Made by a program: the position numbers and the translations under genes. Positions 45,363 through 55,276 of a stretch of 64,000 bases of DNA are shown here, one piece after another; the first letter of the stretch is position 1, and every line of letters starts with the position of its first letter. The notes under the pieces are model-generated. The model was not told the origin of the DNA. It made no database searches and worked only from the letters and a program-made list of their open reading frames with translations. This DNA comes from Vallicoccus soli (GTDB lineage Bacteria; Actinomycetota; Actinomycetes; Motilibacterales; Motilibacteraceae). Location: NCBI RefSeq assembly GCF_003594885.1, contig NZ_QZEZ01000006.1, positions 1 to 64,000 on the forward strand, written 5' to 3'.

Positions 45363-46670
45363 TCAGACCAGGCCCAGGCCGCGACGGCCGGTGGCGTTGA
45401 GGTCCTCGGGCCTGAACCGGTTGTCCCAGTCCCGCTCGTAGTGCTCCTCCGGGAAGTCGCTGGGGCTCGACCCGGTCAGGAACGCCTCGCGCACGGACGC
45501 GGCGTACTCCTCGTTGCGGGGGCACCAGGGGGCGGCGGGGATGTACATGACGTTGCCCCACCCCTTCTGGTCCTGCACCGGGGCGACCCCGTGGATCATG
45601 TCGCAGTGCCACCAGACGGAGTCGCCGGCCGTGACGTCGGGGATGGTGGTGACGGCGCGCAGGAGCAGTGAGTGCCACTTCTGGGTCGCGGGGAACACCC
45701 GGTTGACGGTGACGCCGCACATGTCGTCCTCGGGGACGTCGGGCAGCAGCGGGCGCAGCATGAGGTAGGCCATCGCCTCGGGGATCGGCACGGTGTGCAG
45801 GACGCCCTGGTCGTGGTCCATGTCGGACAGCGCTGTCCAGCCCTGGAAGGTGCGGAACGCGGAGCACATGGTGGTGCCCGGGTACTGCGGACCGGCGGTG
45901 CGGTGCGCGGCGTCCCACGGGTCGTACTGCTCGACGCTGCCGTCGAACAGGTGCCGGAACGCCTTCTGGTACGCCGCGGTCATCCACAGGTCGAGGGTGC
46001 CGGGGTCGTTGTGGGTGCCGAGGCCCCCGGAGTCCGCGCCGGGCGGGCGGCGGCGGATGCGGTCGGGGTAGAGGGAGTCGCGGTCCGGGTCGAACCACTG
46101 CACGCCGTCGGACGTGCTCTTCCACTGCGCGTTGAGGAAGCGCTGGACCGCGGCCATGCGGTCGCTCTGCCGGGCCTGCATCTGCGCGGAGGACCAGTAG
46201 ATCGGGTAGATCTCGGGCTTGGAGCCGACGCTGCCGAAGAAGTCGTCCCCGGGGCCGCGGTAGTCCTCGAAGAAGTGGTTGCTCTCGACGTAGTCGACGA
46301 TGTCCTGGTCCCAGGCGAGGGCCTGCTCGCGGGGGAAGTGCCCGCGCACGACGAGGCAGCCGCGGGCCCGGAGCGTGGCCAGCTGGTCCGCGCTCACGGT
46401 GCCGTCCTCGATGTCGGCGTAGTCGATGACCGGCCAGACGCTGTCACCGGCGGCCTTGGCGGCCTCCACCTCCGCGACCTTGGCCTCGAGCTGCTGCTCG
46501 ACGACGGCGAAGACCTCCTCGACGCTGCGGCCGGACGCGGCGATGCGCGCACGCAGAGCGTTCTTGATCTCGCGGATCGCGCCCTTGAGGTCGTCCGGGG
46601 TGGACTCCCAGTGCGGCAGCGGCGGCAGCGAGGAGGGTGACGTGCCGGGGGCTTCGGGGGCGAGGGTCAC
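45363..46670 (-). CDS. DUF1479 (YbiU-like) Fe(II)/2-oxoglutarate-type oxygenase
   Basis: 435 residues, closely resembling E. coli YbiU along the whole length: AIREIKNALRARIAASG, VWPVIDYADIEDGTVSADQLATLRARGCLVVRGHFPREQALAWDQDIVDYVE, GPGDDFFGSVGSKPEIYPIYWSSAQMQARQSDRM, GGLGTHNDPGTLDLWM, VFRTFQGWTALSDM-like, and AGDSVWWHCDMIHGVAPVQDQKGWGNVMYIPAAPWC. Candidate iron ligands are the HND triad in GTHNDPG and the His of WWHCDMIH. Substrate unknown. Strong AAAGGAG before the GTG. Divergent from a ROK regulator that probably controls it. Confidence 0.92.
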   Translation of the reverse strand: MTLAPEAPGTSPSSLPPLPHWESTPDDLKGAIREIKNALRARIAASGRSVEEVFAVVEQQLEAKVAEVEAAKAAGDSVWPVIDYADIEDGTVSADQLATLRARGCLVVRGHFPREQALAWDQDIVDYVESNHFFEDYRGPGDDFFGSVGSKPEIYPIYWSSAQMQARQSDRMAAVQRFLNAQWKSTSDGVQWFDPDRDSLYPDRIRRRPPGADSGGLGTHNDPGTLDLWMTAAYQKAFRHLFDGSVEQYDPWDAAHRTAGPQYPGTTMCSAFRTFQGWTALSDMDHDQGVLHTVPIPEAMAYLMLRPLLPDVPEDDMCGVTVNRVFPATQKWHSLLLRAVTTIPDVTAGDSVWWHCDMIHGVAPVQDQKGWGNVMYIPAAPWCPRNEEYAASVREAFLTGSSPSDFPEEHYERDWDNRFRPEDLNATGRRGLGLV

Positions 46671-46757
46671 GACCAGCTCCTTTGGTGAGGACTCCTTACT
46701 GGTACGACGGTAGGCCAGGTCGGCGCGTTGGGCAAGGCCCTTGACTAGAGTCGGTCC
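46671..46757. promoter_or_regulatory. Divergent control region between DUF1479 gene and ROK regulator
   Basis: 87 bp. For the ROK gene, TAGAGT (46746-46751) ends 6 nt before the GTG, fitting a leaderless transcript. GGGCAAGGCCC (46730-46740) and the imperfect ACTGGTAC/GTAGGCCAG pair (46699-46718) could be operator halves. The DUF1479 gene has its ribosome-binding site AAAGGAG here. Confidence 0.5.
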
Positions 46758-47894
46758 GTGAGCACCCCGAGGCCGTCGATGGACCTGGTCCGGTCGGCGA
46801 CCGACGCCCAGGTCCTGCGGGCCTTCCTCGACGAGGAGCGCCTGACCCGGGCCGAGGTGGCGGTGCGGACGCAGCTCTCCAAGCCCACGGCCGGGGAGAG
46901 CGTGCGACGGCTGACCGCGGCGGGGCTGCTGCGCGACACCGGCGAGCGCACCCGGGGGCGGGGGCGCGTGGGGACCTACTACGCGCTGTCCGACGGCCTC
47001 GGTACGGCCGCCGCCATCAGCATCGCGCCGCAGGGGGTCGTCGCCGAGCTCCTCGACGTGCGCGGCACGGTCCTGGGCAGGGCCGAGGAGGAGCTGCAGC
47101 GCCCTGCCCGGCCCGACGAGGTGGCGGAGCGCCTGCGGGCAGCGGTACGGCGACTGGGTGAGGGGGCGCCCGGCCCGCTCCGGCTCGCGGTCGTCAGCGC
47201 CGCCGACCCGGTCGAGCGCGCCAGCGGACGGCTGGTGCACCTGCCCGACGCGCCCTTCCTCGTCGGTGAGCTGTCCCCGGCGGACGTGCTCGCCCCGCTG
47301 GTGGACGGGCCGGTCCTGGTCGACAACGACGTCAACTGGGCGGCGCGGGCGGAGCGGGCCGCCGACCCCGAGCCCCTGGACGACTTCGTCTACCTGTACC
47401 TCGACGAGGGCCTCGGGTGCGCGGTCGTCAGCGACGGCGACGTACGGCGCGGGCACCGCGGCCTGGCCGGCGAGGTCGCCCACCTGGTGACCTGGGGACC
47501 TCACGGGCAGGCGGTCGCGTTCACCGAGGTCTTCGCCGCCCTCGGCCTGCGCCAGCACGGCTCGACGGCCATCGCGGTCGACAGGGTCCTCGAGCTCCTC
47601 GACGAGGGGGTGACGAGCAGCGCCGCCCGGGATGTCCTCGTACGAGGGGTCTGCGGTGTGCTCGCTGCGGTCGTCGCGCTCACCGACCCGGCCGTCGTGA
47701 TCCTGGGAGGCACGTGGGGCTCGCACCCCTTGCTGATCGAGGAGGTCCGCAGCCGGTTCCAGCGTTCTCCGCGATCGGTGCCAGTGCAGGCGGCACGCGT
47801 CACCGACGAACCGGCGCTCCGGGGCACCCACGGCCCGGCGGTGGACCAGTTGCGCGCCGCGACCCTCCCCGGCCTGGGGGGCACTGCAGGTTGA
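46758..47894 (+). CDS. ROK-family transcriptional regulator
   Basis: 378 residues. N-terminal winged helix-turn-helix (15-80: VLRAFLDEERLTRAEVAVRTQLSKPTAGESVRRLTAAGLLRDTG). The ROK sugar-kinase-like domain follows with VLVDNDVNWAARAE and the effector segment GHRGLAGEVAHLV. The zinc-binding C-x-C-G-x-x-G-C motif that usually follows is missing: WGPHGQAVAF stands in its place. So it is a diverged ROK protein that may bind a sugar-like ligand. Divergent from the DUF1479 gene; likely its regulator. Probably leaderless. Confidence 0.9.
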   Translation: MSTPRPSMDLVRSATDAQVLRAFLDEERLTRAEVAVRTQLSKPTAGESVRRLTAAGLLRDTGERTRGRGRVGTYYALSDGLGTAAAISIAPQGVVAELLDVRGTVLGRAEEELQRPARPDEVAERLRAAVRRLGEGAPGPLRLAVVSAADPVERASGRLVHLPDAPFLVGELSPADVLAPLVDGPVLVDNDVNWAARAERAADPEPLDDFVYLYLDEGLGCAVVSDGDVRRGHRGLAGEVAHLVTWGPHGQAVAFTEVFAALGLRQHGSTAIAVDRVLELLDEGVTSSAARDVLVRGVCGVLAAVVALTDPAVVILGGTWGSHPLLIEEVRSRFQRSPRSVPVQAARVTDEPALRGTHGPAVDQLRAATLPGLGGTAG

Positions 47895-47911
47895 GCGGTG
47901 GAGCGGGAGCC

Positions 47912-47930
47912 CCACGTCCTGCGGACGTGG
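47912..47930 (+). terminator. Hairpin downstream of ROK gene
   Basis: CCACGTCC (47912-47919) pairs with GGACGTGG (47923-47930) over a 3-nt loop, 18 nt after the stop. Between it and the convergent gene at 48041 lies the first dispersed repeat copy. Confidence 0.6.
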
Positions 47931-48040: not shown

Positions 48041-48628
48041 CTAGGGCAGCCGCGTTCCCACTTCCGCACGGAGACGCGATCGACCGCGTTGGTAGGCGGC
48101 TGCTCCGTCTCGGTCTGGGGCATCCGCCCTGACCACGCACGTGGACATCGCGGCGGCGGCGAGGTCCCGCAGCGCGTCGTTGTACGCCCTTTGGCGCTGC
48201 CGCCCTGCCGGCCCGAAGGCCGGCGCTGCTTTCGCGGCTCTGTACTTGTCCGAGCGCGCGGACCACGCACGGCACAGTGCCTTGTAGTGCTCGAGGTCGT
48301 AGCCCAGAGCCACTCCAGCGGGATACATCTCCAAGGTCAGTAGGCGGTAGCTGGTGAAGTGCTGAGGCTCGTCGATCTCCACGAGAACACCGGACTGCGG
48401 CTGCAGGAAGTCGCCCGGCAACGGCGTGAGCCGCTTGCCAGCCTGCTCGGACAGCACCCCGCCGAGTGCCAGGAAGATCCGTTCCAGTACCGGGGTGACG
48501 CTGTCGAGCTCGACGGGTAGCCCGAGGTGGCCGCGCTGATTCAGCCATGGCAACCGACTCCGAACGAGCTCGACCTCGTCCTCGGCCGCCGCCGCAGCGA
48601 AGGCGCGTTCGCAGTCACCGACCGGCAT
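48041..48628 (-). CDS. Hypothetical protein with endonuclease-like EIDxxQHF motif
   Basis: 195 residues from the ATG at 48626-48628. The key segment (about residues 79-120) is SGVLVEIDEPQHFTSYRLLTLEMYP, then GYDLEHYKALC. E-I-D-x-x-Q-H resembles the active-site strand of Vsr/DUF559-type PD-(D/E)XK nucleases, so a nuclease fold is plausible but unproven. Because of a frameshift upstream, this gene appears fused in frame to the end of the recombinase; it is more likely a separate gene, since its family-like region begins after that recombinase's natural stop. No good ribosome-binding site. Confidence 0.6.
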   Translation of the reverse strand: MPVGDCERAFAAAAAEDEVELVRSRLPWLNQRGHLGLPVELDSVTPVLERIFLALGGVLSEQAGKRLTPLPGDFLQPQSGVLVEIDEPQHFTSYRLLTLEMYPAGVALGYDLEHYKALCRAWSARSDKYRAAKAAPAFGPAGRQRQRAYNDALRDLAAAAMSTCVVRADAPDRDGAAAYQRGRSRLRAEVGTRLP

Positions 48629-48740
48629 ATGTGCAGCCTGCCTGAGATCGGGCGTCAGGGCAGGCCGCGGCCGTAAAGGAGTTCCCGGAGCCTCGGCCAG
48701 GCTCAGGTGAGATTGCGCTGCTTCTTCCGGAGTTGCCCCG

Positions 48741-49681
48741 TCAGGTGCCAGAGGACATGTAGGCGGCCAGGATGTAATTCGGGTGGCGGTCGAGGTTCGG
48801 CGGGCGCGGTCGTAGCGCATCGTGGTGCGCGGGTCGGCATGCCGGGCGGCGATCTGCACGTCGCGCAGATCGACGCCAGCGTCGAGCATCGTGGTGACGA
48901 AGGTGTGTCGCAGCATGTGCGGGTGCATCCGCGGGAGCTGCACTCCGGCCGTCCTGGCGAGGGCGCGGAGTCGGCGGGTCGCGGCGTGCCGGTCCATCGC
49001 TCCGTTGCGCGTGTTGCGCAGCAGCGGGCCGGCGTCTCGTCGTGCGGCGGCGCGGTCGACCGCGCGGGCGACGGCTGGCGGCATCGGCACCAGCACGGTC
49101 CTGCCGCCCTTGCCGACGACGCGCAGGACCCGGTGACCGTGCTCCTCGCCGATGTCGCTCAAGCGGAGGCCGCAGGCCTCGAAGACCCGCAGCCCGAGCA
49201 GGCCGAGCAGGCAGACCAGGGCGAAGTCGTTGTCGTTGGTGCTGTCCCTGGCGGTGGCCAGCAGCGCCTCCAGCTGCAGGTGCGACAAGCCGAGCGTGGG
49301 TGACTTGGGCGGGACGCTCGGCCGGCGGACGTACTCGGCCGGCGAGTGCTCGAGTACGCCGTCGATGACACAGGTCCGGTAGAAGCCCGCGAGGACCGAG
49401 AAGCGGCGCGAGACCGTGGACGGGCGGTGGCAGCGCACCTCCTGCATCCACCGCGCGTACAGCTCGAGGTCCACCCGACGCGCAGCGAGCGGGTCCGTCC
49501 CGCGGTCCGCGCACCAGGACAGGTAGATCCTGAGGTCGGACGCGACGTGCGCGCGGGATTCGCCCTTGTACCGCGCGAGGTGCGCCGCCACCGCAAGGCG
49601 CAGCAGTGCTGGGTCAACGCCGAAGTGCTCTTTGAAGTCGTCATGCTCGACAATCCGCCCGCCATGCCGCTGACCGGGCAC
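48741..49681 (-). pseudogene. Tyrosine recombinase/integrase with C-terminal frameshift
   Basis: About 313 residues if read across the shift; GTG start at 49679-49681. SAM-like N-terminal domain (LARYKGESRAHVASDLRIYLSWCADRGTDP), then the catalytic domain with Arg in LGLRVFEACGLRLSDI, HxxR in HPHMLRHTFVTTM, His in AARHADPRTT and nucleophile Tyr in MRYDRAR. Directly after the Tyr the frame changes. The conserved ending PNLDRHPNYILAAYMSSGT-stop is in the +1 frame, ending at 48741, while the original frame runs on into the next gene. One missing base near 48798-48805 explains this. Catalytic residues are all upstream, so partial activity is possible. Confidence 0.8.
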
Positions 49682-49791
49682 GCGCGTGCACGACCAGCGC
49701 GATCGAGCGGCTCGAGTACCCAGGCTCACCGACCGGGGAGGACCGGATGCCCTGGGGACGATGGGAGCGCGCAGGACGAGGAGCCCCCGGA

Positions 49792-49830
49792 CCGCGGCAG
49801 AACCGTGTAGCCGCGCGGACCGCGGCAGGA
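49792..49830 (+). repeat. Dispersed repeat copy b
   Basis: CGCGGCAGAACCGTGTAGCC and then GCGCGGACCGCGGCAGGA. It differs by one base from the leading unit of the main array. Lies in the divergent gap between the recombinase and the small gene at 49849. Confidence 0.8.
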
Positions 49831-49848: not shown

Positions 49849-50139
49849 ATGCACGCGGCGCCTGTTGACCCTCGCGACACCTGCTGGGAGGTCGACTCGC
49901 CAGCCTTCCGTGTCTACTTCTGGCAGCAGCCGACCGTGGTTTCCCAGGCCTCGGCGCTGGAGCTTGCCAGGTGGTCGTCGGAGGAGTGGCGCCTCACAGG
50001 ACCTCGTGACGTGAACGAGGTGACCGCGTGGGCCGAGCTGCACCGTGGTGACCGGTCGTACACCCTGCATGTCGAAGTAGAGGGACAAGAAGGTCTGGGC
50101 CTCGTCAAGCTGGCCGGCACGGACCCTACGAGTAGGTAG
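49849..50139 (+). CDS. Hypothetical protein, 96 residues
   Basis: Small alpha/beta protein: CWEVDSPAFRVYFWQQP, ALELARWSSEEWRLTGPRDVNEVTAWAELHRGDRSYTLHVEV and a final GLGLVKLAGTDPTSR. The sequence is balanced in composition and looks genuinely coding, unlike the frames around it. I do not recognise a family. ATG start; flanked by repeat copies on both sides. Confidence 0.65.
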   Translation: MHAAPVDPRDTCWEVDSPAFRVYFWQQPTVVSQASALELARWSSEEWRLTGPRDVNEVTAWAELHRGDRSYTLHVEVEGQEGLGLVKLAGTDPTSR

Positions 50140-50148
50140 GCGCCCTAA

Positions 50149-50190
50149 GAGCGGCAGAACCGGGTGGCCGAGCGGACCGCGGCATGAGCG
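50149..50190 (+). repeat. Dispersed repeat copy c
   Basis: GAGCGGCAGAACCGGGTGGC and then CGAGCGGACCGCGGCATGAGCG, 10 nt after the stop of the 96-residue gene. Same orientation as the other copies. Confidence 0.8.
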
Positions 50191-50332
50191 TGCGTCGTCC
50201 GCCCGCTGCGTCAGCGGCCTGACGCTCAGGTGCCGAAGCGTGGCCAGATCTCAGCCGCAGCGCTCATCCGGCTCGGGACGCCGGGGGGACCGAAACCGGC
50301 CCACCACCGTTGCGCACCCAAGTCCGGGCACC

Positions 50333-50983
50333 ATGGCAGTCATGTCACTGTCGGCACTCCGCAGCGTGTCCGAACTCCGACCCTGCGGCGACCGCCACCT
50401 CGACGACCACCTCGATCCCACCGGCGGCCGGGCCTATTGGACGTACGACCAGCCGAGCGAGCCTGACACGTTGACGCCGCTCGACTGCTTGGCGCCGACG
50501 CTCCTGTCTCTACGCCTGACTTTCGACAACGTCGTCCCGCTCTTCCAGCCCGCTGGGCCGCATGCCGAGCTGCGCCGGTGTATGCAGGCGGTGCTCGATC
50601 TCCCGCCGGTCGATTTTCTCGAACTCGACCTCGCTGACCCCGCCAGCCCATGGGCAACGGTGCGTCGAGCGATGATCGCCTCGGAGCACGTGCCTTGGTG
50701 GACTGCTGTGTCAGTTAGCAAGGTGCTGCATCGAAAGCGACCCGACCTCGTGCCCGTCTACGACAGTCAGGTCTTCGCGTTCTACTTCGGTCGCCCGCCC
50801 AGCGGGCGGGGGGCGCCCGGACGCTTCTGGCCCCGGCTTCAGTCGGATCTTGGGGAACAGTGGGCTCTCGTCGATGCGTGGCGGCACCGTCACCAGCCGC
50901 CCGAAGGCCCGCGGCTCACCCTCCTACGTGTCGCAGACATCGTTATCTGGGAGCACCAGGTAACGGGCTGCTCGGCGGCATAG
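50333..50983 (+). CDS. DUF6308-type hypothetical protein
   Basis: 216 residues from the ATG at 50333 (a second ATG at 50342 is possible). Features: GGRAYWTYDQPSEPDTLTPLDCLAPTLLSLRLTFDNVVPLF, PWATVRRAM, SVSKVLHRKRPDLVPVYDSQV and WALVDAWRHRHQPPEGPRLTLLRVADIVIWEHQ. The pattern (a K-x-x-H-x-K-R-P-x-L-x-P-V-x-D core) fits DUF6308, an actinobacterial family of unknown role related to HhH-containing enzymes. It precedes the second repeat block. Confidence 0.7.
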   Translation: MAVMSLSALRSVSELRPCGDRHLDDHLDPTGGRAYWTYDQPSEPDTLTPLDCLAPTLLSLRLTFDNVVPLFQPAGPHAELRRCMQAVLDLPPVDFLELDLADPASPWATVRRAMIASEHVPWWTAVSVSKVLHRKRPDLVPVYDSQVFAFYFGRPPSGRGAPGRFWPRLQSDLGEQWALVDAWRHRHQPPEGPRLTLLRVADIVIWEHQVTGCSAA

Positions 50984-51016: not shown

Positions 51017-51152
51017 GAGCGGCAGAACCGGGCGAGCGTAGCCGCCCGCAGAGCGGCAGAACCGGGCGAGCGGGGCCGCCCTCAACGCGGCAGAACGGGG
51101 TGAGCGGAGCCGCCCTGACCGCGGCAGGACGGGCGGGTGTAGTCGCCCTCAC
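51017..51152 (+). repeat. Four degenerate tandem units of the 34-bp repeat
   Basis: Units start at about 51017, 51051, 51086 and 51120 and diverge from each other by several bases. They share GCGGCAGAACSGGG and AGCCGCCC. Located between the convergent 3' ends of the DUF6308-type gene and the gene at 51242. Confidence 0.85.
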
Positions 51153-51241: not shown

Positions 51242-51679
51242 TTAGAGGGTCAGCCGCGCTCGGATCCTGGGGCTGATGTGCACGTCGTGCGGCAGCGCCG
51301 CCAGCTCGCCCGCCTGGACGGGCACCCCCTGCCTGTGCGCGATCTTCGACAGGTGGGCCCAGTGCAGCGCAGCTTCCTCTTCGTAAGAGCGCCCCTCCGG
51401 CGGCTCGTCGGGCCCGACGACCGCGCGCGCGGTCTCCTCCAGCTGTTGCAGCGACAGGTGCGACCAAATGCTGTCGGGGCCGCCAGAGGACCAGCCCCGG
51501 TCGTCGAGGAGGGTGAGCCGCCGCCCGCTGACGAGCTCGAGTTCGAGCAGCGCCGAGATCGACACTTCACGATGCTGATCGAGGGCTGCTTCTGCCGCCT
51601 CATCGAGATCGATGGAGGTGACCAGTCGCCGGGTGTCATGCACGCTCCATCGTGACGGATCGCGCCCGCGCGACGTCAT
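51242..51679 (-). CDS. Hypothetical protein, about 145 residues
   Basis: Contains LVTSIDLDEAAEAALDQHREVSISALLELELVSGRRLTLLDDRGWSSGG, SIWSHLSLQQLEETARAVVGPDEPPEGRSYEEEAALHWAHLSKIAHRQGV, and ends PHDVHISPRIRARLTL. Well-formed helical segments and GC-rich third positions support coding. No family recognised. Start uncertain: ATG at 51677-51679 or GTG at 51641-51643; neither has a clear ribosome-binding site. Confidence 0.65.
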   Translation of the reverse strand: MTSRGRDPSRWSVHDTRRLVTSIDLDEAAEAALDQHREVSISALLELELVSGRRLTLLDDRGWSSGGPDSIWSHLSLQQLEETARAVVGPDEPPEGRSYEEEAALHWAHLSKIAHRQGVPVQAGELAALPHDVHISPRIRARLTL

Positions 51680-51802: not shown

Positions 51803-52450
51803 CGCGGCAGAACCGGGTAGCCGCGCGGACCGCGGCAGAACCGGGCGAGCGTAGCCGCCCTCAACGCGGCAGAACCGGGCGAGCGTAGCCGCCCTCAACG
51901 CGGCAGAACCGGGCGAGCGTAGCCGCCCTCAACGCGGCAGAACCGGGCGAGCGTAGCCGCCCTCAACGCGGCAGAACCGGGCGAGCGTAGCCGCCCTCAA
52001 CGCGGCAGAACCGGGCGAGCGTAGCCGCCCTCAACGCGGCAGAACCGGGCGAGCGTAGCCGCCCTCAACGCGGCAGAACCGGGCGAGCGTAGCCGCCCTC
52101 AACGCGGCAGAACCGGGCGAGCGTAGCCGCCCTCAACGCGGCAGAACCGGGCGAGCGTAGCCGCCCTCAACGCGGCAGAACCGGGCGAGCGTAGCCGCCC
52201 TCAACGCGGCAGAACCGGGCGAGCGTAGCCGCCCTCAACGCGGCAGAACCGGGCGAGCGTAGCCGCCCTCAACGCGGCAGAACCGGGCGAGCGTAGCCGC
52301 CCTCAACGCGGCAGAACCGGGCGAGCGTAGCCGCCCTCAACGCGGCAGAACCGGGCGAGCGGAGCCGCCCTCAACGCGGCAGAACCGGGCGAGCGGAGCC
52401 GCCCTCAACGCGGCAGAACCGGGCGAGCGGCGGCCGCCCGCAACGCGGCA
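51803..52450 (+). repeat. Tandem array of 34-bp hairpin repeats (about 18 full units)
   Basis: The unit is CGCGGCAGAACCGGGCGAGC followed by GTAGCCGCCCTCAA (34 bp). Units begin at 51831 + 34k. The first 15 (51831-52340) are identical. The next two (52341-52408) change GTAGCC to GGAGCC. The last (52409-52443) has an extra base. A variant 28-bp unit precedes (51803-51830) and a partial unit ends the array. Each unit can fold as GGGCG-A-GC/GTA/GC-CGCCC. The period is not a multiple of 3, so it does not encode a protein repeat. There are no spacers, so it is not a CRISPR. Confidence 0.98.
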
Positions 52451-52503
52451 GTGGTAGCAATTCTCGCCCCGCGCCTATCGCCGATCTCCTGGGTGGTGGG
52501 TGC

Positions 52504-52515: not shown

Positions 52516-53283
52516 ATGGTCATTCGGAACGCCAAGCCAGGGAACACGACGTTTCAGTTCGGTGCAGGACCGAAGCATCTGCGAATCAGGAACAGAAGGT
52601 TGTTCCTCGAGGACCTGGAGCGGATCGTGACCATGTTGCGAGAGGACGGAGAGTCCTACTGGAGCAGACTTCCGCTGCGAGAACGACTGCTACTCAGTGC
52701 ACTTCCTAGTAGAGCCCCCTACCGCAGGCCGTTCGATGTCGTCAAGCAGTCTCGTAACCGGATCATCGTGGCAGACTTGGCCGATCTGGTAACCCTGCCT
52801 AAGGATGCGCTCAACAACCTGACCCTGGAGACAACTCGGGTGCGGGTAGAGCTGCACAAGGAGATCGCGCAAGTGATTGTGCAGAACAAAGATGATGCAG
52901 TTGCGATGGCCACGGCTGAGAATAATAAGTCGTACGTTCAGACGCAAACGGATCGGTCCCTGAAGGTTTGGTACTCGGTTCTAGGGCCCGTCGCTTGGTT
53001 TCTGCCCCTCCTTGCGGCGCTATCCATCTTCATGGCGGTCGCCTCGTTCTTCACGACGACGGGGAAGCCTGTTGTCGAGGTGCCCCTCTGGCTCAGTGGC
53101 TTTGCTGCCATGGCGGGTGTCGCCGCCTTCATGAATCACTCTGTGTCGGGGGTGTTGATCGCGCCGTTCAAGCGATCCGAGTTCCGCGCCAACGATACTG
53201 CAAGAAGACGCTGGCGCGTAAGCACGACTGTAGCCGTGACGGCCATCCTCACGGCCGCGACAACGAATCTCATCAACCGGTAG
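52516..53283 (+). CDS. Hypothetical membrane protein (low-GC unit, gene 1)
   Basis: 255 residues. A basic soluble N-terminal region (1-150), predicted helical, includes RRLFLEDLERIVTMLREDGESYWSRLPLRERLLL and a likely coiled segment TRVRVELHKEIAQVIVQNKDDAVAMATAENN. It is followed by three membrane helices: about 151-180 (VLGPVAWFLPLLAALSIFMAV), 190-217 and 234-252. No family recognised. Codon use has many A/T third positions, unlike all neighbours, which points to recent transfer. The next gene starts 15 nt after the stop. Confidence 0.8.
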   Translation: MVIRNAKPGNTTFQFGAGPKHLRIRNRRLFLEDLERIVTMLREDGESYWSRLPLRERLLLSALPSRAPYRRPFDVVKQSRNRIIVADLADLVTLPKDALNNLTLETTRVRVELHKEIAQVIVQNKDDAVAMATAENNKSYVQTQTDRSLKVWYSVLGPVAWFLPLLAALSIFMAVASFFTTTGKPVVEVPLWLSGFAAMAGVAAFMNHSVSGVLIAPFKRSEFRANDTARRRWRVSTTVAVTAILTAATTNLINR

Positions 53284-53298
53284 CCAACGGAGGTTGTC

Positions 53299-54684
53299 GT
53301 GCGACCACGAGTAGCAGCGGTTTGTACGTCCTGCGATCGCTTGCAGGAGAGTAACTTCTCCGAGGGTAACGAGGACCTTGATGCCGAGCTTAGGACGCTG
53401 GTTGTTCGTGTTCCCATCGCGGACTTGCCATGCGCGGAGTGTGGAACGACGACCGTGATCCCACCAGCTCGCTATGAGGTCCACGGGCCGGCTACCTACG
53501 CTTTTGAGCTCGAAGCCACACCCATGACCATGGAGGATCTGCAGCGTCGACGCATCCTATTAGAGAATCAGGAAGACGACTGGCATCCGGCACGCGTTGT
53601 ACGGCTGGTTGGACGTCGGTTGCGGGTGCTGGAGGACCTCAAGCCGCGGAAGTTGAGCACGGCTGAGAAGCGGGAGTGTTGGTCCCGCACACTTCCCGAG
53701 GGTGACGATAACGTACACGACCTTTTGGCCATCAGCCAGACCGTAGAAGCAATTCCATGGCTGGCAGACGCACCCGAGACCATCAGCGAGACCCTGGCAT
53801 CCCTGCCGGAGACCGGGTTGGCGACGTTGCGGGAGAGCCCTCTCCCGCCAGACTGGGGTGACACATACGGCGGGTCAGGGCTCATCGGGGCACGCCGTTT
53901 GGCTAGACGCCGAATTGGTTTGGCTGAAGGTATGCTCGGGGCTCTTGGTGAGGCGCTGGCAGCGAAGCGAGTAAGTGCCATGTTCGCCGTGGCTCGGTCA
54001 GTAGTTGAAATCTCCGCTCTAGCCATGTGGTTGCTGCAACCTGCAGACCTGCGTCTTGTAGCGGCTCGCTACTACGCCGACCGCTGGAGCGGCCTGCGAG
54101 CCGCCGTACTTCTGCGACCTAGCATGAAAGTCGAACTGCAGTCGATAGCTCGCGAGGAAGCCAAAGGACTTGCAGCAGAGGGCTATGACGTCGGTTGGGA
54201 CAAGCAGGAGTGGCCTACTACCCTCGAGAAGCAGGGGAAGGCGAACGCCCTTTCCGCGGTCGAGGCGTGTTTCCCGGATCGGGAGCTTGGCGAGGAGGCC
54301 TACCGCGCGCTGTCGGCCCTCGCACATGGTGAGGAATACGGCCTAGACGACTTCACCGTGGCGCAGGACGCCATGGTGGTGACACTCGAACAGCAATACA
54401 TAATACTTCGGATGGCAGTCTGGCCCTATGGAGTAGCCCTTCACCGCCTAGGAGAGACCATGGGAAGCAGTCCAGCGCCAGCTCTGGCGCAGGTGAATGC
54501 CGTTCTCGAATCCGTGCGGGTTATGCTCGAACGACTGCAGGCCAAGGACGAGAGCGCTTCGTCCGTCGACTCAACAGCACTTCACCCGTCGCCGGCCCAC
54601 GGCGATAGTGCCGGACCAAGGCCTGCGCGTCCCGTTCATGGAAGGAAGAATAGACGCAGGAAGGGGCGGCGTCACAAAGAGTAG
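53299..54684 (+). CDS. Zinc-ribbon protein with HEPN-like R-x6-H motif (low-GC unit, gene 2)
   Basis: 461 residues; GTG start with GGAGG 5 nt upstream. Two CxxC knuckles (Cys9/Cys12 and Cys45/Cys48) suggest an N-terminal zinc ribbon. A helical middle (FAVARSVVEISALAMWLLQP, residues about 230-255) resembles DUF5677/HEPN-like proteins. It is followed by RALSALAHG (Arg336, His343), an R-x6-H arrangement compatible with the HEPN ribonuclease motif. The C-terminus is basic (KNRRRKGRRHKE), possibly nucleic-acid-binding. A toxic RNase role is inference. Low GC like gene 1, so probably one operon. Confidence 0.75.
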   Translation: MRPRVAAVCTSCDRLQESNFSEGNEDLDAELRTLVVRVPIADLPCAECGTTTVIPPARYEVHGPATYAFELEATPMTMEDLQRRRILLENQEDDWHPARVVRLVGRRLRVLEDLKPRKLSTAEKRECWSRTLPEGDDNVHDLLAISQTVEAIPWLADAPETISETLASLPETGLATLRESPLPPDWGDTYGGSGLIGARRLARRRIGLAEGMLGALGEALAAKRVSAMFAVARSVVEISALAMWLLQPADLRLVAARYYADRWSGLRAAVLLRPSMKVELQSIAREEAKGLAAEGYDVGWDKQEWPTTLEKQGKANALSAVEACFPDRELGEEAYRALSALAHGEEYGLDDFTVAQDAMVVTLEQQYIILRMAVWPYGVALHRLGETMGSSPAPALAQVNAVLESVRVMLERLQAKDESASSVDSTALHPSPAHGDSAGPRPARPVHGRKNRRRKGRRHKE

Positions 54685-54715
54685 GTTCTCTCCACTCGAA
54701 TCGGCTCTTCGCTGC

Positions 54716-54847
54716 TGAGTACAGACGCGAGATTAGCTCGCTGATCCGGAGCGGCTCGGTCTCGTAGTTGACCAACCGCAGCCAGTCCGACAGCGCCGCT
54801 TCGACCGGGTCGAGATCGGTGCCGAGCGCCCCCACGAGCCCGATCAC
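54716..54847 (-). pseudogene. Remnant resembling the N-terminus of an anti-phage dCTP deaminase
   Basis: The minus-strand frame reads VIGLVGALGTDLDPVEAALSDWLRLVNYETEPLRISELI, matching the opening strand, G-x-x-G-T-D-L loop and helix of the kinase-like N-terminal domain in anti-phage dCTP deaminases (pattern E-L-V-x-G-L-V-G-x-V-G-T-D-L). Similarity stops after about 44 codons, where the frame runs into the 3' end of the low-GC gene. No deaminase zinc motif is present. Short match, so tentative. Confidence 0.4.
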
Positions 54848-55276
54848 GACCTTGGGCCGCCTGCCGACAATCGCCCGGCCCGTATCCGTGTGACTCCGAG
54901 GCGGGCGGCCTAGAAGCGGCCTGGTGGGTCACTGTCTCCCGTTTTGTCGTCCTGTGTGCCAGCGACAGGTATACGGGACCTAGCGCATAGCGGTCCAGGC
55001 CAAGAGCACATCTAGTAATGCCGGGCTGCCCGCCGTTCGGCGTGCCTCCCTGCTCATGTGCCCAGTGTTGCCGGTCGTTGTGCCAGGCTCTGGTTCGCTG
55101 GCCTGCCAGCGCGAGCCTGTCGCCGACGAGCGATACCGCAACGGCCGCTCATCGGCAGAAGAGGGCGTCGTACCGCGCTTCGCGGCGCGTCCGTCTCGAT
55201 GCAGAACCGAGCAGGGACGGCGGAGCCGCACGGTCCGAGCGGCCGCGGCGTACCCGCCTCGGAGCTCCTGCGCCTG
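54848..55276. other. Gene-free stretch right of the accessory island
   Basis: No frame here has a recognisable motif. 55198-55230 carries a weak echo of the dispersed repeat (GCAGAACCGAGCAGGG, then GGAGCCGC). The GC content rises back to the chromosomal level towards 55200, so this probably marks the island edge. Confidence 0.5.

Follow-up and report, generated by a model that had tools for sequence, protein, structure and literature searches.

What is a perfectly repeated, 34-bp tandem array doing in a bacterial chromosome, and how do its units remain identical? The question is raised by the window analysed here, a stretch of 64,000 nucleotides from Vallicoccus soli. Judging from sequence comparisons, we consider it probable that the array is a run of about 19 tandem core sites of an Xer-like tyrosine recombinase, lying inside a gene-cassette platform.

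Structure of the array and of its locus

Tandem Repeats Finder places the array at 51817-52451, with a period of 34, 18.6 copies and a 98% match (score 1198). By walking along the sequence we delimited 15 identical 34-bp units (GCGGCAGAACCGGGCGAGCGTAGCCGCCCTCAAC) at 51832-52341, shifted rightwards by one base from the 51831-52340 of the original prediction, together with the two further units carrying a single-base GT-to-GG change that it had also described (Table 1). The units abut without unique spacers and 34 is not a multiple of 3, which rules out both a CRISPR and a protein repeat, in agreement with what had been concluded earlier. A role as structured RNA had been suggested as well. This finds no support in the Rfam scan of the window at the gathering threshold, which gave no match besides two tRNAs and thus none at the array, nor in the folding of the unit. 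The GC hairpin with a 3-nt loop and a bulged A that had been described does appear in the minimum-energy fold (-11.5 kcal/mol), but it is no stabler than the folds of shuffled sequences (z -0.77; 41 of 200 shuffles fold as well), and the inverted arms of adjacent cores offer a better explanation for it.

The 20-base core of the array unit, with up to two mismatches allowed, has 23 matches in the 4.04-Mb genome. All except two, 20 of them exact, lie in the array locus, and the remaining two, each with two mismatches, lie elsewhere. The unit is thus confined to its locus and is not scattered in thousands of copies. Beyond what had been described before, the locus comprises a second, smaller array, three occurrences of a 28-bp variant and an adjoining tyrosine recombinase gene.

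The ORFs between the repeats are mostly without a family, save for the DUF6308 and DUF7255 proteins, and PADLOC gave zero matches for six ORFs of the cassette region. The GC content is 61-62% at 53001-55000 vs 65-85% in the other kilobases of the window. The earlier observation that the array lies directly upstream of this low-GC unit is true and also meaningful: the unit looks like the next cassette, probably closing at the core at 55152. A Gig2-like protein (PF07350, 4.6e-138) is encoded next to the cassette region, at 45363-47915 on the minus strand.

Table 1. Features of the array locus (positions in the window) and of a recurrent element at other loci
Feature	Position	Strand	Description
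DUF7255 region	48041-48778	minus	Read through in the frame of the recombinase; probably an adjacent cassette gene
Xer-like tyrosine recombinase gene	48779-49651	minus	Start codon uncertain; Pfam PF00589 7.7e-26; NCBIfam Xer families
Core pair	49794-49827	minus	28 bp apart; ~145-175 bp upstream of the recombinase start, an attI-like position
96-aa ORF	49849-50139	plus	Candidate cassette gene; no family
Core pair	50151-50184	minus	28 bp apart; between cassettes
DUF6308 protein	50240-50983	plus	6.6e-22; candidate cassette gene between cores 50151-50184 and 51019
Second array of 34-bp units	51017-51151	minus	Smaller and more diverged; Tandem Repeats Finder and sequence walk
145-aa ORF	51242-51679	minus	Candidate cassette gene between the two arrays; no family
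28-bp unit	51804-51831	minus	Back-to-back cores without the 6-bp linker, at the other array end
15 identical 34-bp units	51832-52341	minus	Each is TGCCGC, right arm GTTGAGGGCGG, 6-bp linker CTACGC and left arm TCGCCCGGTTC
Two 34-bp units	52342-52409	minus	One-base change (T to G); units at 52342 and 52376; sequence walk
Terminal variant unit	52410-52450	minus	Longer; includes the last TGCCGC of the array (52445-52450)
255-aa ORF	52516-53283	plus	Low-GC cassette; hydrophobic stretches by eye; no family above cut-off
461-aa ORF	53299-54684	plus	Low-GC cassette; no family
Core with centre TGCCGA	55152-55157	minus	Profile score 19.4; good right arm TGAGCGGCCGT; the low-GC cassette probably ends here
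Recurrent element of ~1.4 kb	L067:6113-7540, L129:7790-9226, L091:4232-5643, L098:7537-8955, L117:1951-3343		

The recombinase gene

In the NCBIfam profile search the product of the recombinase gene is nearest to the XerC/XerD families. A PDB search with its G001 relative as the query gave XerD (1a0p, 3.1e-24) as the best solved relative and a weak match to IntI4 (1.9e-5). Scored against the integron-integrase model TIGR02249, the window recombinase reaches 50.6 bits for a cut-off of 265, and residues 241-310 alone are matched. The catalytic residues of tyrosine recombinases are R-K-H-R-H-Y. This set is present here, R155, H245 and R248 being invariant and K181, H271 and Y280 nearly so in 18 aligned sequences. 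A structure predicted for the window integrase has a mean pLDDT of 75.9 and a pTM of 0.50 and is poor at its C-terminal end. Its top matches in Foldseek are XerA and XerD, but at a TM of about 0.4, and therefore only the family, no details, is drawn from this model.

Just past the region of the catalytic tyrosine, the frame of the window recombinase departs from that of its relatives and runs into the DUF7255 region. The C-terminal sequence typical of the relatives carries on in a different frame (ORF 48741-49514, minus strand, in the region 48741-49729). The window integrase may be inactive, or the frame-shifting base may be a sequencing error. Because the integrase leaves the frame of its relatives near the C-terminus, the window array may be a relic of recent activity.

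Core sites near integrase genes

Core sites were analysed in a set of 83 loci (1.35 Mb), comprising 80 named loci, the window and the loci of G001 and G003. The motif TGCCGC is commoner on the integrase strand in this set (1500 occurrences vs 1007 on the other strand), and the bases just 5' of it carry a motif. For cross-validation, 79 loci with a masked integrase gene were divided in two, one half serving to train a 20-column core profile and the other to test it. Over five repeats the profile found a mean of 435.6 held-out cores on the integrase strand vs 38.8 on the other, whereas a control profile trained on the other strand showed no bias (514 vs 484). This masked cross-validation supersedes an earlier profile count of 535 vs 42 (score >12), in which matches in the integrase gene were included and training was done on the same strand. 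The enrichment of cores is local, near integrase loci: seven 20-kb stretches far from the integrase (L191-L197, from G357 and G197) contain four profile matches in 140 kb on both strands, and the 15-mer RTCCGCTCATGCCGC is not enriched genome-wide over its backward control in the 393 genomes of the class.

Cores avoid genes, 185 of 701 lying inside predicted genes vs 75% of random positions. A core stands 40-260 bp upstream of the start of the integrase match in 46 of 77 loci, compared with 9% of random 220-bp windows, and 30-140 bp past its end in 37 of 78 loci, compared with 4.5% at random. Since cores are frequent on both sides, the integrase gene itself is often bounded by them.

The 520 distinct cores include 319 with the centre TGCCGC and 107 with TGCCGA. 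Information extends over about 12 bases on the left side and about 10 on the right, where it then becomes flat. Of 13 right-arm positions, 5.6 around TGCCGC and 7.0 around TGCCGA agree with the inverted left consensus, vs 3.7 in random DNA. This layout appears close to the 11-6-11 organization of dif, with a left arm of approximately GAACGYCCGSTCA, a 6-bp centre TGCCGC or TGCCGA and a weaker inverted right arm. In this reading, adding 6 bp to a 28-bp core would give the 34-bp unit, and cores placed back to back would give the 28-bp one. Nearly perfect palindromes around TGCCGA at L108, L115 and L133 look like empty sites.

Two loci deserve mention for their core content. The richest one without an array, L097 of Pimelobacter simplex strain 3E, has 42 cores on the integrase strand and 1 on the other, many of them paired 20 or 29 bp apart. 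L126 of Nocardia terrae has 2 cores on the integrase strand and 10 on the opposite one, as if its array were inverted relative to the integrase.

Cassette boundaries and exchange between genera

Alignments between loci with at least 85% identity outside the integrase numbered 11 and had 42 ends away from contig edges. The filter left out alignments within 150 bp upstream of the integrase, among them that of the pair L085/L136. Half of the ends (21 of 42) fall within 16 bp of a core vs 1.8% at random, the ends of one alignment not being independent. The excess is smaller for alignments of 65-85% identity, where 29 of 416 ends are near a core and 2% would be expected.

The excluded pair shares a 684-bp cassette, with 98% identity between the copy of Propioniciclava flava (L085) and that of Tessaracoccus sp. 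MC1679 (L136), and is the clearest case. The left arms differ, identity starts at TGCCGC and it stops exactly after the next TGCCGC. These boundaries are what an exchange inside the 6-bp centre would leave. Among the roles listed in the original prediction, recombination substrate is the one that finds support: the repeat is built of the core sites that bound exchanged gene cassettes.

Cassette genes have no common orientation. Upstream of the integrase 74 are with and 77 against the integrase strand, and downstream the numbers are 88 and 71, according to an ORF scorer that was right for 67 of the 83 integrases. An element of about 1.4 kb recurs with 71-85% identity in the cassette arrays of different genera, sometimes starting a few bases from a core (Table 1); it is possibly an insertion sequence targeting cores.

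Distribution of the integrase and of the arrays

The integrase scan, performed with one genome per species, produced 105 candidate stretches and 93 relatives, of which 80 were kept. Relatives occur in more than 20 genera, all belonging to Actinomycetes and including Nocardioides, Tessaracoccus, Propioniciclava, Kineococcus, Cellulomonas, Nocardia, Actinomadura, Amycolatopsis and Kribbella. Integrases about 80% identical are carried by three other genomes of the window's family, which is represented by five genomes including that of the window, and the integrase was found in 14 of the 393 class genomes at E up to 1e-70. The plasmid search gave just two relatives, about 40% identical and both from Pseudonocardia. 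Three viral relatives are 30-36% identical and have 0-1 cores per strand. The array unit is unmatched in phage records; 22 viral contigs carry TGCCGC-N28-TGCCGC-N28-TGCCGC without runs of profile cores (0-2 per strand), and a phage origin of the arrays was consequently rejected.

Among the 393 class genomes the same N28 pattern matched 18 and its backward control 14. The pattern alone is therefore unspecific, and its matches were accepted as core arrays only in G000, G001, G145 and G336. The other 14 genomes were dropped, as they mostly contain 17-bp or other repeats with 0-1 profile cores nearby; one of them, G293 (L210), has four profile cores and is ambiguous.

Arrays with a period of 34 and TGCCGC at the same unit edge are present in four further genomes: G001, Nocardioides psychrotolerans (L127), G145 and G336. 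Their unit sequences differ from genome to genome. G001 has 17 copies of its own 34-bp unit just upstream of a second, broken integrase copy and a 28-bp repeat just upstream of the integrase gene; the broken copy begins directly after the 17-unit array (L059:13470-13720). The arrays of N. psychrotolerans stand at three junctions, with 5.4, 2.3 and 5.2 copies, and the unit also occurs once in inverted orientation. These arrays with their own unit sequences, together with the 15 identical units of the window, support the recent expansion or active homogenisation that had been postulated from the window alone.

The window unit is also found singly outside arrays. Copies identical at 33 of 34 positions are present in a Cellulomonas MAG (L088) and in N. 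caldifontis (L109). A copy on a Microbacterium plasmid (96.5% over 57 bp) adjoins a small gene bounded by a further core pair, and a more distant copy lies on a Paenarthrobacter plasmid. The plasmid search found no integrase of this recombinase family on either of these two plasmids.

Origin and maintenance of the arrays

The cores of the locus all have the same orientation. A recombinase could accordingly excise or insert the DNA between two of them, gene cassettes being moved singly by exchange in the centre common to the cores. The 34-bp unit would be the smallest possible cassette, composed of a right arm, the 6-bp linker and a left arm and containing no gene. As the cores have a common centre and direction, whole units would be gained or lost when sister copies exchange out of register, and the units would stay identical. 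We infer that the window recombinase acts on the window cores and that recombinase-mediated, unequal exchange between out-of-register cores lengthens and shortens the arrays. The array may offer new cassettes, for example the adjoining 61-62% GC unit with its foreign composition, many equivalent landing sites. Slippage between the TGCCGC repeats may have made the first duplicate, and slippage or homologous recombination between identical units may assist the growth of the array.

Slippage alone could also produce arrays, since TGCCGC stands at either end of even a single site. The array would then be a neutral satellite, generated by replication slippage or by RecA-dependent unequal crossing-over, with neither a role for the recombinase nor a function. 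The direct repeats at the two ends of the site suffice to seed a duplication, and ordinary recombination keeps several identical copies identical. G145, a single-contig genome, retains arrays although it lacks a close integrase, the best match having 37% identity (5.6e-17). However, its array unit is present at places 228 kb apart, which slippage in place leaves unexplained, as it does the unit of N. psychrotolerans that sits at several cassette junctions, once inverted. Moreover, the five genomes have different unit sequences and yet all share the same 34-bp period and frame. We therefore regard a purely neutral origin as somewhat unlikely.

An attC-like nature of the units, which would then recombine as single strands folded into a stem, one bulged base, a 2-bp inner stem and a 3-nt loop, seems improbable to us, although several properties of the arms fit such sites. 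Comparison of seven unit types indicates that the arms of a unit match each other better than they match those of other units (44 positions; none of 1854 derangements reaches 44, the maximum being 43), and five of the seven linkers allow the fold with the bulge, the 2-bp stem and the 3-nt loop vs 28% by chance. Downstream of cores, at a distance that varies, there is an inverse partner, TGCCGATGAGC, and GCCGATGA is found 25 times downstream and twice upstream. On account of this partner the attC-like hairpin was first favoured as the main reading. It was then demoted, since the own-arm test peaks directly after the centre and there is no covariation between the left and right arms across 520 solo cores (z at most 2.5). 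The R boxes of attC pair with each other, which the TGCCGC ends, being direct repeats, cannot do. The ordinary folding energy of the window unit, which is no better than that of shuffles, and the Xer-like rather than IntI nature of the integrase also argue against attC-like sites.

Tandem, near-identical units with inverted arms are typical of protein-binding arrays, and the form of the unit fits an array used for replication, partition or transcription control (iteron, parS/centromere-like or insulator). Nevertheless, no replication or partition gene is present among the ten ORFs scanned nearby, which speaks against the iteron-like or centromere-like role proposed originally, and single units sit among cores in other genera and on plasmids; a binding array is very improbable. 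Least credible of all is an assembly artefact: short reads resolve long identical arrays poorly and the true number of units may differ, but equivalent arrays occur in independent assemblies, one of which (G145) is a single contig.

Comparison with known systems

Interpreted as core sites of an Xer-like recombinase, the array can be compared with several known systems. With chromosomal dif/Xer dimer resolution it shares the core architecture and, through the XerD match, the recombinase family. However, dif is normally a single site per chromosome, whereas the loci described here contain many cores.

The pdif modules of Acinetobacter plasmids have Xer-type sites with 6-bp spacers, in which crossover takes place and for which identical spacers are favoured, according to passages of PMC13141974. 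Genes bounded by 11-6-11 Xer-type sites are common to both systems, as far as the position-wise information of the cores indicates. In contrast to pdif sites, which alternate in orientation, the cores are direct repeats, with a strand bias of 436 vs 39. The pdif modules use XerC/XerD and varied spacers, whereas here we find one common centre and a dedicated recombinase, in Actinomycetes. The tandem gene-less units have no counterpart among the pdif modules described in the same passages (PMC13141974).

As in integrons, a tyrosine recombinase gene has a site just upstream, which would be the primary site (46 of 77 loci), and small, mostly uncharacterised genes are separated by sites of the same orientation. 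Cassettes are common to several genera and, to judge from their boundaries (21 of 42 ends at cores), appear to be site-bounded and exchangeable. There are also arrays without an integrase (compare CALIN), those of G145 being like integron arrays that have lost theirs. The differences are nonetheless substantial. The recombinase is not an IntI-type integrase but Xer-like, with 50.6 bits against the IntI cut-off of 265, and the cores are dif-like 11-6-11 sites, not clearly folded attC sites. Cassette genes point both ways, whereas those of classical integrons mostly have one orientation. Cassettes flank the integrase on either side, and cores frequently border the integrase as well.

Tn554-like and RIT elements also bring together actinobacterial tyrosine recombinases and a mobile-element setting, the recombinases being in pairs or trios on the elements described in the relevant passage of PMC3414803 (for recombinase classes, see the corresponding part of PMC8138268). 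Unlike in these elements, none of the ten window ORFs scanned is a second or third recombinase adjoining the first, and the locus contains multiple direct cores instead of two element ends.

Implications

Full-text searches of an open-access library gave no description of this system. Tentatively, Actinomycetes may possess their own equivalent of the integron, based on a dedicated Xer-like recombinase and dif-like cores in place of IntI and attC, that spreads gene-less 34-bp micro-cassettes, which amplify into landing-pad arrays for foreign genes. If true, these micro-cassettes would be among the smallest mobile units. With the 34-bp arrays, a single assay would suffice to test whether a tandem repeat expands site-specifically, and a convergence of integrons, dif modules and satellite DNA likewise becomes testable. 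IntegronFinder 2.0 reported no complete integron in Actinobacteria, according to a passage of its description (PMC9024848), and a cassette-exchange platform present in more than 20 genera would fill this reported gap. The platform would also give a handle on the uncharacterised genes that it carries.
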